From: Ruegeria lacuscaerulensis | GTDB taxonomy: Bacteria; Pseudomonadota; Alphaproteobacteria; Rhodobacterales; Rhodobacteraceae | Direction: 5' to 3' | NCBI RefSeq assembly: GCF_013034685.1 | Contig: NZ_WQGO01000003.1 | Span: 186,001 to 250,000, forward strand | Length of the DNA: 64,000 bases | Shown here: piece after piece, positions 38,856-53,491 of the stretch | How positions within the stretch are numbered: position 1 is the stretch's first letter | Layout of the letters: each line of letters begins with the position of its first letter | The notes under the pieces: model-generated | Seen by the model: the letters and a program-made list of their open reading frames with translations, nothing else | Database searches by the model: none | What the model was told of the DNA's origin: nothing | Made by a program: the position numbers and the translations under genes

Positions 38856-39494
38856 TTATGGGGCCCAGGCTAGGAAGTTTCCGATCATGCGCAGCCCCAC
38901 ATCCTGACTTTTTTCAGGGTGGAACTGCATTCCAACCATTGTGTCACGGCCAATCACGGCCGTGACCTCCTGCCCATAGTCCACATAAGCCAGACGCTGC
39001 GCCGGGTCGGTGACCCGGAAGTGGTAGGAATGGACGAAATAGGTGTGATCGCCGGATTCCACTCCGTCAAACACCGGGTGATCGCTTTCCAGCACCAGAT
39101 CGTTCCAGCCCATGTGCGGCACTTTCAGCGCGCTGTCTGACGGTTCAATCCGCACAACATCGCCCGCAACCCAGCCCAGTCCGTCGGTGTCAGTGTATTC
39201 GTGGCCCGTTGACGCCATCAGCTGCATCCCGACGCAAATGCCCAGAAACGGGCGACCTTTTTGCTCCACCGCTTCAACCATAGCGTCGTGGATACCCTTG
39301 TGCCCACGCAGTTCGGCCGCACAGGCAGGAAAGGCTCCGTCACCGGGCAAGACTAACCTGTCGGCGCGCGCTACGACATCTGCATCCGAGGTCACAACAA
39401 CCTCACCCGCATCCAATTCCCGCGCCATGCGCTGAAACGCCTTTTCGGCCGAGTGCAGGTTGCCGCTTTCGTAGTCGATGATCGCTGTCAGCAT
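38856..39494 (-). CDS. hisH: Imidazole glycerol phosphate synthase, glutaminase subunit
   Basis: A 212-aa class I glutamine amidotransferase that supplies ammonia to HisF. The catalytic Cys is in LGICVGMQLM, and His and Glu are in GMQFHPEKSQ. The oxyanion strand GDGAFPAC is typical. It begins immediately after the hisB stop, so hisB and hisH are contiguous. Confidence 0.96.
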   Translation of the reverse strand: MLTAIIDYESGNLHSAEKAFQRMARELDAGEVVVTSDADVVARADRLVLPGDGAFPACAAELRGHKGIHDAMVEAVEQKGRPFLGICVGMQLMASTGHEYTDTDGLGWVAGDVVRIEPSDSALKVPHMGWNDLVLESDHPVFDGVESGDHTYFVHSYHFRVTDPAQRLAYVDYGQEVTAVIGRDTMVGMQFHPEKSQDVGLRMIGNFLAWAP

Positions 39495-41423: not shown

Positions 41424-41498
41424 TGGAGCGGGCGAGGCGATTCGAACGCCCGACCCTAACCTTGGCAAGGTTATGCTCTACCCCTGAGCTACGCCCGC
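41424..41498 (-). tRNA. tRNA-Gly (anticodon GCC), copy 1
   Basis: Acceptor stem GCGGGCG/CGCCCGC, D-arm AGCTCAGGGGTAGAGC, anticodon loop with GCC, T-arm with GTTCGAATC, and an encoded CCA (41424-41426). The 75 nt are identical to the second copy upstream on the same strand. Confidence 0.95.
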
Positions 41499-41534: not shown

Positions 41535-41609
41535 TGGAGCGGGCGAGGCGATTCGAACGCCCGACCCTAACCTTGGCAAGGTTATGCTCTACCCCTGAGC
41601 TACGCCCGC
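41535..41609 (-). tRNA. tRNA-Gly (anticodon GCC), copy 2
   Basis: Identical in sequence to the copy at 41424-41498 and 36 bp upstream of it on the minus strand; CCA is encoded. The two are probably one transcript from the promoter at 41629-41655. Confidence 0.95.
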
Positions 41610-51629: not shown

Positions 51630-51920
51630 TCACAATCCGTCAACCAGAACTAAATTGGCTGAGGCTGTATTCTGCCTGATTTTGGCCAGCTCGATATAGT
51701 CGGGGTCGTCTTTCCATGCCTTTGCGGCTTCGAGGCTGGGAAACTCCATCAGAACGATCCCATCTTTTTCCCATGCCCCCTCAATCACTTCGACCGGTTT
51801 TGACGAGACGGTCAGCAGGCGCCCTCCGTGGCGGTCAAAGATGGGCATGAAGCTCTCCAGATATTTCTGGTACCCGTCCGGGTCGTGGATTGAAATCTGA
51901 GCGATGAAATACGCGGCCAT
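51630..51920 (-). CDS. DUF1330 family protein
   Basis: A 96-aa small alpha/beta (ferredoxin-like) protein. MAAYFIAQISIHDPDGYQKYL at the start and VIEGAWEKDGIVLMEFPSLEAAKAWKDDPDYIELAKIRQ are classic for DUF1330. It forms dimers; no catalytic role is known. It is convergent with the UvrD gene (3 bp apart) and lies just downstream of the cuckoo-type RNA array terminator on the same strand. Confidence 0.9.
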   Translation of the reverse strand: MAAYFIAQISIHDPDGYQKYLESFMPIFDRHGGRLLTVSSKPVEVIEGAWEKDGIVLMEFPSLEAAKAWKDDPDYIELAKIRQNTASANLVLVDGL

Positions 51921-51969: not shown

Positions 51970-52018
51970 GAAAAAAGAAAAACGGCGGTCCCCAGGGAGG
52001 AGGAGGGGAACCGCCGTT
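51970..52018 (-). terminator. Terminator of the DUF1127-CcsR transcript
   Basis: The second hairpin of unit 4 (AACGGCGGT / ACCGCCGTT, with inner G:C pairs) is followed on the minus strand by a T-rich run (TTTTTCTTTTTT). Unlike ordinary terminators its loop carries the CCTCCTCCC motif. Confidence 0.85.
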
Positions 52019-52058
52019 CTTTGCAACATCAGGGCAGGGAGGAGGAGAGCCCTGATGT
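51970..52058 (-). ncRNA. CcsR/cuckoo-type small RNA, unit 4
   Basis: The last of four tandem two-hairpin units. Hairpin 1 stem 52026-52035/52049-52058 and hairpin 2 stem 51981-51989/52010-52018, extended inward by CCCC/GGGG. Both loops expose CCTCCTCCC on the minus strand (52037-52045 and 51995-52003). Hairpin 2 is followed by TTTTT and acts as the terminator of the whole array. Confidence 0.8.
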
Positions 52059-52093
52059 ATCTGAACCCGGGTCTGATCCCGGTATGTCTAAGT

Positions 52094-52171
52094 CGCGGCG
52101 ACACCAGGGAGGAGGAGAGGTGTCGCCGCGCGCTTTCAACATCAGGGCAGGGAGGAGGAGAGCCCTGATGT
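52094..52171 (-). ncRNA. CcsR/cuckoo-type small RNA, unit 3
   Basis: Hairpin 1 stem 52139-52148/52162-52171 (identical to the first hairpin of unit 4) and hairpin 2 stem 52094-52105/52119-52130. Loop motifs CCTCCTCCC fall at 52150-52158 and 52107-52115. The two hairpins are 8 nt apart. A linker with a CCGGG/CCCGG mini-hairpin (52067-52082) separates it from unit 4. Confidence 0.8.
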
Positions 52172-52206
52172 ATCTTCGTCCGGGTCTGATCCCGGTATGT
52201 TTAAGT

Positions 52207-52283
52207 CGCGGCGACGTCAGGGAGGAGGAGAGACGTCGCCGCGCGCTTTCAACACCGGGAAAGGGAGGAGGAGAACCCGGTGT
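52207..52283 (-). ncRNA. CcsR/cuckoo-type small RNA, unit 2
   Basis: Hairpin 1 stem 52252-52259/52276-52283 (ACACCGGG / CCCGGTGT) and hairpin 2 stem 52207-52218/52232-52243. Loop motifs are at 52263-52271 and 52220-52228. The linker to unit 3 has a mini-hairpin at 52180-52195. Confidence 0.8.
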
Positions 52284-52316
52284 ATCGCGTTCCGGCGTTC
52301 AGGGCCGGTATAATCT

Positions 52317-52387
52317 GCGGCGACATCAGGGAGGAGGAGAGATGCCGCCGCTGAAATACAGGTCCTAAAGGGAGGAGGAAGGACCTG
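52317..52387 (-). ncRNA. CcsR/cuckoo-type small RNA, unit 1
   Basis: The first unit after the DUF1127 stop. Hairpin 1 stem 52359-52366/52380-52387 (CAGGTCCT / AGGACCTG) and hairpin 2 stem 52317-52327/52341-52351 with one G-U pair in the minus-strand RNA. Loop motifs are at 52370-52378 and 52329-52337. The linker to unit 2 has a CCGGC/GCCGG mini-hairpin (52292-52308). Confidence 0.8.
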
Positions 52388-52407
52388 ATCTCGGTATATG
52401 GTTGCGC

Positions 52408-52635
52408 TTAAGTGCGCGCGAATTGCTCTTCGGCCGCTTGCAGCGCAAGGCGCCGGATCATCGAGCGGTGCAGGCCCAAATCAGCCAGCTCTCGGTTCGA
52501 CAATTCGGACAGTTCATTCACTGTCCGACGGTAGACGCGATAGCGCGCGAACCGGATCTTTGCCGCGTCGATCAATGAAGCCATGCCGGTTGCCGGTGAG
52601 CTTTTGAGCGCGGTTTGATGTGTTGCTGCGGCCAT
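52408..52635 (-). CDS. DUF1127 protein (CcaF1-like)
   Basis: A 75-aa basic protein. Start 52635 (MAAATHQTALKSSPATG) was chosen because the 28 residues upstream are not conserved. The C-terminal DUF1127 domain is complete: RFARYRVYRRTVNELSELSNRELADLGLHRSMIRRLA (about residues 30-66), the Arg/Leu pattern typical of the family. In Rhodobacter sphaeroides the homologous small gene (ccaF1) precedes four CcsR small RNAs, and its product binds RNA and affects their maturation. The same order is seen here, so co-transcription and processing with units 1-4 is expected. A heat-shock-type promoter is expected but I could not identify one. Confidence 0.9.
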   Translation of the reverse strand: MAAATHQTALKSSPATGMASLIDAAKIRFARYRVYRRTVNELSELSNRELADLGLHRSMIRRLALQAAEEQFART

Positions 52636-52742
52636 GAGTAAAACCTGTGTGTTTCCGTGTTGCCGGGCGTTCCGGCGTTTGCTTGAGATTGAAAATAGGC
52701 AAATGCTGCGATTGCACAATGGTTCGCGTCGTCAATGCCGCT

Positions 52743-52757
52743 ATGCAGCAAATGCAT
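52743..52757. promoter_or_regulatory. Small palindrome upstream of the DUF1127 gene
   Basis: ATGCA-GCAAA-TGCAT is a perfect 5-bp inverted repeat 108 bp before the DUF1127 start; its core GCAAATGC recurs directly at 52699-52706. It is a possible operator in the DUF1127 promoter region; the factor is unknown. Confidence 0.3.
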
Positions 52758-53284: not shown

Positions 53285-53491
53285 ATCCGATGAGGACGAG
53301 GCACATGGGGCACCAAACGACCCCGAACCAATAAAATACAGGTTTCATACAGGCATCTCGCTTTCATCATTTAAGAGATCCGGCGCGCGGGCGAGCAGAC
53401 ATCCCCCCAGGTGGCGCGCGCAGCTGGACTTCCCGCTCAGCGGGCCAATGCGGCGGGTTGATCAGTGGCAGCAGATCAACCCGCCGTTTTT
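53285..53491 (+). ncRNA. UpsM-like leader RNA of the dcw cluster
   Basis: The sequence before mraZ ends in a strong plus-strand terminator 55 bp before the start codon. In Rhodobacter sphaeroides the same position yields UpsM, a small RNA of about 200 nt made by premature termination in the 5' leader of the division/cell-wall operon. The 3' end here is set by the terminator. The 5' end is only estimated from that size; no promoter could be fixed with confidence (TTGACT at 53211-53216 lacks a matching -10). A small CCCGC/GCGGG hairpin at 53432-53444 precedes the terminator. Confidence 0.6.
53451..53491 (+). terminator. Leader terminator upstream of mraZ
   Basis: A perfect 13-bp stem CGGCGGGTTGATC (53451-53463) / GATCAACCCGCCG (53474-53486) with a 10-nt loop is followed by TTTTT (53487-53491). 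Transcription of mraZ from any promoter upstream must read through it, so it is an attenuator for the dcw cluster. Confidence 0.92.

Follow-up and report, generated by a model that had tools for sequence, protein, structure and literature searches.

An array of four anti-Shine-Dalgarno double hairpins behind a DUF1127 gene: the Ruegeria form of the ccaF1-CcsR (cuckoo RNA) system and its conserved promoter boxes

The closest described relative of the locus reported here is the ccaF1-CcsR1-4 system of Rhodobacter (Cereibacter) sphaeroides, in which the DUF1127 gene ccaF1 and CcsR1-4 are reported to form one transcript which has an RpoHI/RpoHII promoter and a terminator and which is processed by RNase E (PMC10253847), CcsR1-4 being reported as stress-induced, as processed by RNase E and CcaF1, and as bound by Hfq. 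Such DUF1127/CcsR-like associations in alphaproteobacteria have been published under the name 'CIN1' (PMC10253847), and cuckoo RNAs are defined by two to four hairpins with a conserved loop (PMC4504443), hairpin number varying within the family and the loop motif staying constant (PMC3927594; PMC4504443). A second relative, NfeR1/alpha-r14 of the Rhizobiales (RF02344), has in common with the Ruegeria locus its adjacent hairpins, the same 9-mer in each loop, its variable stems and the sequence TGCA-N6-GCAT, which at -72 to -60 of the NfeR1 promoter in rhizobia is given as the site of LsrB (PMC10746234); it differs in being a three-hairpin RNA with a sigma-70 promoter, and the text covered makes no mention of DUF1127. 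The AbcR1 and AbcR2 RNAs, which are under LsrB/VtlR control, also resemble the Ruegeria system as anti-SD RNAs acting on uptake genes and in their VtlR/LsrB-type boxes, and VtlR of Brucella is reported to activate DUF1127 genes as well. AbcR is, however, a different RNA, and AbcR and DUF1127 are described as separate targets, whereas in Ruegeria the protein and the RNA share one predicted transcript.

In the window, by which we mean the whole 64-kb stretch of Ruegeria lacuscaerulensis DNA that was analysed, the minus-strand ORF 52411-52635 encodes a DUF1127 protein (Pfam PF06568, E 3e-16) of 75 aa that is the counterpart of CcaF1 (gene 52408-52635 including the stop codon); its closest named matches are from Ruegeria, the top one being R. 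halocynthiae MOLA R1/13b at 85% identity. An array of eight hairpins that all carry CCUCCUCCC in the loop starts 15 nt past the stop codon and occupies approximately 51978-52392 of the same strand, so that it lies 3' of the DUF1127 gene and co-oriented with it as is characteristic of cuckoo/CIN1 loci. The first-pass annotation, made from the sequence, had placed eight inverted repeats with a minus-strand loop motif downstream of a DUF1127 gene and had arranged them as four pairs, and this description is borne out by the Pfam match and by a motif scan of the window, which returned eight copies of CCTCCTCCC between 51995 and 52378, all on the minus strand and all in hairpin loops, at spacings of 41/66/43/70/43/70/42 nt. 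Just 0.42 copies are expected in a window of this size and none of 100 shuffles reached eight, while the genome as a whole (4.6 Mb) holds 21 copies, eight of them in the array, as compared to 11 of the backward pattern. The 448-nt minus strand of the array folds with a z-score of -11.7, an equal fold being found in 0 of 100 shuffles.

Folding, the motif scan and the matches to the Rfam CcsR1 model place hairpins 1 (52353-52392) and 2 (52317-52351) in a first doublet, 3 (52252-52283) and 4 (52207-52243) in a second, 5 (52139-52171) and 6 (52094-52130) in a third, and 7 (52026-52058) and 8 in a fourth, the corresponding CcsR1 matches being 52312-52392, 52203-52277, 52090-52174 and 51977-52067. 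At least two adjacent hairpins with CCUCCUCCC loops are a trait of cuckoo/CcsR RNAs, and eight such loops in four doublets are present here; the array further contains two direct-repeat units of 113 nt each that are 91% alike. Between the doublets there is a third kind of hairpin, absent from the first-pass annotation, which is devoid of the motif (CCGGGaucagaCCCGG and relatives) and is seen both in the fold and in the count of spacer stems, with a CCGGC/GCCGG stem at 52292-52308 and CCGGG/CCCGG stems at 52180-52195 and 52067-52082. Hairpin 8 is followed on the minus strand by the U-run TTTTTCTTTTTT (together 51971-52021, from sequence and fold), from which it follows that the last aSD hairpin doubles as a terminator with the aSD loop inside it; this intrinsic terminator was judged by eye, hairpin 8 being unlisted by a terminator scan that permits loops of 3-8 only. 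A Rho-independent terminator at the 3' end, as described for CcsR1-4, is thus present. Directly downstream of it and on the same strand lies a DUF1330 gene (51633-51920).

When the four doublets were compared with the Rfam model of CcsR1 (RF02791), scores of 50.0, 46.5, 44.0 and 34.2 bits were obtained (E 7.6e-11 to 3.6e-6); every match is on the minus strand and falls short of the gathering score of 65.3 bits, which is why no doublet is listed at default settings; with the default thresholds, Rfam returned two tRNAs only and no CcsR1 match in the 64-kb window. Two further weak CcsR1 matches elsewhere in the genome (E 0.18 and 0.59) are at chance level. The ar14 model (RF02344) likewise matched the minus strand only, with 54.7 and 43 bits against a gathering cut-off of 58.8. 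The locus is therefore a member of the cuckoo class and not an Rfam CcsR1 entry. The covariance-model check that had been proposed for the first-pass identification, namely that this is the roseobacter counterpart of ccaF1-CcsR, gave CcsR1 matches at all four doublets, though below the curated cut-off, and that identification is upheld by these matches together with a layout equal to that of R. sphaeroides ccaF1-CcsR1-4: a DUF1127 gene, then four double hairpins with CCUCCUCCC loops, a Rho-independent terminator and RpoHI/RpoHII-type promoter positions. The likeness is one of description rather than of R. sphaeroides sequence, and the Ruegeria array differs in scoring 34-50 bits against the cut-off of 65.3. 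It is the Ruegeria form of the known ccaF1-CcsR ('CIN1', cuckoo RNA) system, and as the first-pass identification is right, the system is not new; that it belongs to this class and also has its anti-SD action is, in our judgement, probable. Roseobacter members are probably listed in the 2015 cuckoo paper already. The main text of a survey of R. pomeroyi sRNAs, as far as covered, mentions neither DUF1127 nor mraZ nor anti-Shine (PMC4809877).

Stems that vary and yet remain paired are a further cuckoo trait, and this trait is displayed by the second hairpin of the doublet, hairpin B, in which 10 of 11 pairs were changed on both sides in an alignment of 50 doublets; hairpin A was not predicted, its region being poorly aligned. 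As the doublets were picked by the exact loop motif, the conservation of the loop in this set is by choice. Independent of that choice are the pyrimidine-loop hairpins of the named arrays which do not carry the exact 9-mer: 24 of the 27 listed keep CTCCTCCC, indicating that the loop core is the 8-mer CUCCUCCC. For the spacers, a strong stem was found in 186 of 198 unique sequences, compared to a mean of 52 (maximum 62, 20 rounds) after single-letter shuffling, which is a lenient control, and the stems comprise 52 distinct sequences. RNAalifold found no pair in the aligned spacer hairpins, owing to the fact that these stems do not align. The spacer hairpins between the doublets are compensating hairpins.

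Arrays were found in all 41 Ruegeria genomes sampled, 40 by the exact doublet pattern and the last one by three covariance-model matches, and eight core motifs occur in 7 of 30 Ruegeria loci (this locus counted), which means that this strain is not alone in having four doublets. Across the family, 88 of 100 genomes (99 genera) carry an array, or 84 if the firm ones only are counted: 52 contain the exact triple and 16 of the other 48 the exact doublet; of the 32 then left, 20 gave a covariance-model match at E <= 0.01, which in 16 cases reached E <= 1e-4. At 80 of 80 named loci the motifs sit directly behind a co-oriented DUF1127 gene, the first motif lying 191-299 nt past its start codon, with 2 to 14 exact motifs per locus (six in 29 of the 80, an R. 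pomeroyi strain other than DSS-3, L148, among them); these loci are the best 80 of 126 DUF1127 relatives, hence a biased sample of DUF1127 genes, and overlap with the other genomes sampled. In the set of 46 family loci, one per genome and with repeats dropped (L090 and L096 duplicate the named loci L173 and L146), a DUF1127 gene is present in 38 stretches and was not found in the stretch in eight. The longest arrays contain 15 (L092, genome G046), 14 (L166) and 14 (L175) exact motifs, and the inner units of L166 follow each other at a near-constant step of approximately 103 nt, which suggests growth by tandem duplication.

A second cuckoo doublet locus, with a similar promoter block and no DUF1127 found in the stretch, was observed in three of the 41 Ruegeria genomes (L501, L502 and L503 in G033, G023 and G005, respectively), and in genome G134 another cuckoo doublet, again with no DUF1127 in the stretch, stands in identical form on two contigs (L406 and L409), perhaps as a mobile or duplicated copy. 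A candidate second cuckoo RNA in the present genome (C23:148314; L181, approximately 2010-2040) was rejected: it is a lone terminator-like CCTCCTCCC hairpin behind a gene for a 52-aa secreted peptide, and this motif is not conserved, for the peptide is encoded in 37 of 41 Ruegeria genomes and the relatives keep a hairpin, while among 30 loci the 9-mer is found in that of this genome only.

On the other side of the DUF1127 gene, and divergent from it, lies mraZ (53546), preceded at 54 nt by a strong terminator-like hairpin with TTTTT (53451-53491, plus strand); a divergent mraZ is present within 3 kb at 65 of the 80 named loci. This hairpin is likely the counterpart of the UpsM leader RNA of R. 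sphaeroides, which it resembles as a structured mraZ leader with a terminator-like hairpin, with the differences that the UpsM hairpin is reported 84 nt before the start codon (PMC5089854) and that the hairpin seen here is a neighbour of the array and outside it. The window also contains two tandem tRNA-Gly(GCC) genes of equal score, 39 nt apart (41427-41498 and 41538-41609, minus strand), and an ARAGORN tRNA with unclear anticodon (38904-38992, minus strand) that is absent from the Rfam matches above the cut-off.

Upstream of the DUF1127 gene, a putative RpoH-like core promoter (52693-52719, minus strand) consists of TTG at 52719-52717 (-35), A at 52696 (-12) and T at 52693 (-9), in register and counted from a start site predicted at 52684; these are the positions reported to be important for RpoHI/RpoHII in R. 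sphaeroides (PMC3441632). Alignment of 21 loci revealed two conserved blocks in the 165 nt ahead of the gene, each containing a TGCA-N6-GCAT box found by motif match: box 1, TGCATTTGCTGCAT, at 52743-52756 and box 2, TGCAATCGCAGCAT, at 52703-52716, predicted to span -72 to -59 and -32 to -19, respectively, the -72 of box 1 being counted from the predicted start. The spacing between the boxes is 40 nt here; across the loci compared it is 40 nt in 62 cases and 39 nt in nine. In addition, CAATGCCGCTATGCA on the plus strand (52733-52747), which overlaps box 1, agrees in 13 of 15 letters with the VtlR motif as quoted for Brucella (PMC12595884). The 64-kb window holds the box 14-mer about as often as chance predicts (4 observed, 4.4 expected), so that the argument for the boxes rests on their place and their conservation. 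Of the 80 named loci, 78 have one box or more in the 260 nt upstream and 50 have two or more, and none was found on either strand in 796 control windows; the 38 family stretches with DUF1127 have a box in 31 cases and two boxes in 21. The exact pair of boxes, with 24-28 nt between them, occurs once each in 32 of the 41 Ruegeria genomes, never twice, and in none of the other nine, the backward pattern giving 0; at all 30 of the exact-pair loci examined at least five core motifs follow, and the two others sit by position just before arrays, so that among the 41 Ruegeria genomes the pair is found at the cuckoo array locus only. At 70 of the 80 named loci the core promoter and one or both of the boxes are in register (both boxes at 47, box 2 only at 14, box 1 only at nine), and box 1 stands in register near -72 from the predicted start in the window and at 56 of the 80. 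Where a doublet occurs with no DUF1127 found in the stretch, a box was present within 220 nt upstream at eight of eight family loci and in two of the three copies of the second Ruegeria doublet locus, a last base of T or A being allowed; the same relaxed 220-nt search found no box upstream of the duplicated G134 doublet.

From the sequence and place of the boxes we infer that a LysR-type regulator may bind them, and we tentatively propose that the cuckoo RNA genes of the Rhodobacteraceae, with or without DUF1127, could constitute a dedicated regulon of one such regulator, reading an operator of two TGCA-N6-GCAT boxes, one at -72 and one at -32, spaced by 40 nt, a regulon in which DUF1127 protein and anti-SD RNA would be fused in one transcript that lowers the synthesis of uptake proteins under stress or nutrient change. 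There is also a real possibility, if a little short of an even one, that the boxes are no LysR-type operators and are instead part of the RpoH promoter or the site of some other factor. Box 2 indeed lies between the TTG (-35) and the A (-12), and an RpoHI/RpoHII promoter has been reported for ccaF1 of R. sphaeroides (PMC10253847); box 1, however, begins 37 nt upstream of the -35, beyond sigma contact, at the place taken by the LsrB site in NfeR1 (PMC10746234). LsrB itself is reported to be confined to the Rhizobiales (PMC11975290), which favours this alternative and means that a protein binding the boxes here would be a different one. No literature link of LsrB/VtlR-type boxes to ccaF1-CcsR was found, LysR and LsrB being absent from the covered text of PMC10253847, PMC8307010 and PMC11354728, although the primary papers on CcaF1, cuckoo RNA and CcsR1-4, outside our scope, may contain one; for R. 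sphaeroides, neither the boxes nor spacer hairpins are mentioned in the text covered. What might surprise a specialist is that the two-box promoter accompanies cuckoo RNA even in the absence of DUF1127, and that it resembles the operator of a Rhizobiales regulon in both sequence and place.

As the ccaF1-CcsR type of system that it represents, the locus would operate as follows. One promoter would drive the DUF1127 gene together with a 3' UTR of four double hairpins ending in the aSD-bearing terminator; by analogy with relatives, this transcript would be stress-induced, RNase E together with CcaF1 would cleave it within the AU-rich spacers to give four double-hairpin RNAs, as has been described in R. 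sphaeroides, and Hfq binding would be expected as well. The two CUCCUCCC loops exposed on each RNA would then base-pair with Shine-Dalgarno sequences resembling GGGAGGAG and thereby block the start of translation, chiefly of ABC and TRAP solute-binding proteins.

These start sites are plentiful: the genome contains 93 instances of GGGAGGA with an ATG 4-11 nt downstream (three within the array), against 10 instances of the backward pattern. Solute-binding-protein families account for at least 25 of the 76 proteins retained that start in this manner, counted among the best 25 of 79 families listed (SBP_bac_1 9, DctP 6, Peripla_BP_6 4, Peripla_BP_4 4, NMT1_3 1 and Phosphonate-bd 1, with overlapping matches to SBP_bac_8 and Peripla_BP_5 left out of the sum). 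Two of 78 AAGGAGA-start proteins were found to be such proteins (PBP_like_2 and OpuAC; Fisher p 3e-7), from the best 25 of 118 families listed and, for the remainder, N-termini judged by eye, and none was seen for the 20 AAGGAGG-start proteins among the best 25 of 28 families listed. Computed duplexes point in the same direction, as GGGAGGA pairs with the loop at -15.0 and with the 16S tail at -10.8 kcal/mol, the loop being favoured, whereas for AAGGAGA the loop is not favoured (-8.7 versus -9.1 kcal/mol); likewise, the loop is favoured over the 16S tail for GGGAGGAG and hardly so for AAGGAGG. The tail used in this computation is what we take the 16S sequence to be, and the mRNA contexts were made up.

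NfeR1 of S. meliloti, whose loops carry the same 9-mer as the array, is reported to silence in reporter assays the mRNAs for two periplasmic components of ABC transporters (PMC10746234). The targets named for R. sphaeroides CcsR, namely flhR, the glutathione pool and the pyruvate dehydrogenase complex (PMC8307010), are not uptake genes, which argues against uptake targets. A control on the Shine-Dalgarno class was drawn from four relatives that lack the exact doublet; the covariance model then gave an array in one (G129) and a weak match in another (G044, E 0.002), leaving G054 and G123, with 83 GGGAGGA starts against 17 control starts and 112 against 5, respectively. Array carriers gave 123/17 (G091), 92/5 (G113), 107/14 (G126) and 79/8 (G129). 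The GGGAGGA class is hence equally common where no array was detected and does not have to be maintained by the array, a result that speaks against an array-driven choice of Shine-Dalgarno sequence. One of four GGGAGGA genes examined in G054 encodes a solute-binding protein; of four loci in G123, one was scanned and gave no family, two have a 42-aa ORF and one lay outside the scan, none being shown to encode such a protein. The control in these two genomes does not decide function, and the enrichment of solute-binding proteins is a lead on targets and no proof that the array shaped these Shine-Dalgarno sequences. That solute-binding uptake proteins are targets of the array is, in our estimate, an evenly balanced proposition.

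The loops could also be imagined as a general brake at the level of the ribosome, competing with 16S rRNA for all strong Shine-Dalgarno sequences with no chosen set of mRNAs, as would suit an anti-SD motif repeated in eight identical loops per transcript and up to 14 times in exact form in arrays of other genera. We hold this to be rather improbable, as the conserved core CUCCUCCC (8-mer) is longer than the shared CCUCC, the computed pairing is selective for Shine-Dalgarno sequences of the GGGAGGA type, and NfeR1 is reported to act on particular mRNAs (PMC10746234). It is unlikely, too, that the array mainly serves CcaF1, with the hairpins a platform or decoy for the RNA-binding DUF1127 protein of the same transcript and mRNA pairing secondary: CcaF1 of R. 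sphaeroides does bind RNA and affects CcsR maturation as well as other RNAs (PMC10253847), and DUF1127 gene and array are co-oriented neighbours at all of the named loci, but the loop sequence is far stricter than the stems, as pairing would predict, and DUF1127 was not found in the stretch at eight of the 46 family loci or at the second Ruegeria locus (L501-L503). A functional plus strand, on which the same hairpins are possible and would present GGGAGGAGGAG loops, with GGA in them, as a sponge for a CsrA-like protein, is hardly conceivable and was rejected on orientation, promoter and terminator, since both the U-run and the terminator belong to the minus strand, it is the minus strand that follows the DUF1127 gene and the conserved promoter, and both the CcsR1 and the ar14 matches are confined to it.

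For the reading of the array as a set of anti-SD RNAs that pair with mRNAs, what was known already is the system from Rhodobacter; the analysis adds to it the spacer hairpins, the CUCCUCCC core, the last hairpin that doubles as terminator, the two promoter boxes and the enrichment of solute-binding proteins among GGGAGGA starts, with the shared promoter boxes and the possible nutrient-uptake targets as new leads. Through the two-box promoter that they share, the VtlR/LsrB regulon of rhizobia, comprising DUF1127 proteins, AbcR and NfeR1, would be linked to the CcsR system of Rhodobacter, the two being treated apart in the literature covered, and the two-box element offers one DNA handle by which the regulator may be found. 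Roseobacters live by scavenging dissolved compounds via ABC and TRAP uptake systems, and if a stress-induced anti-SD array does stop such systems at the level of translation, it would represent a general nutrient-uptake brake in abundant marine bacteria.
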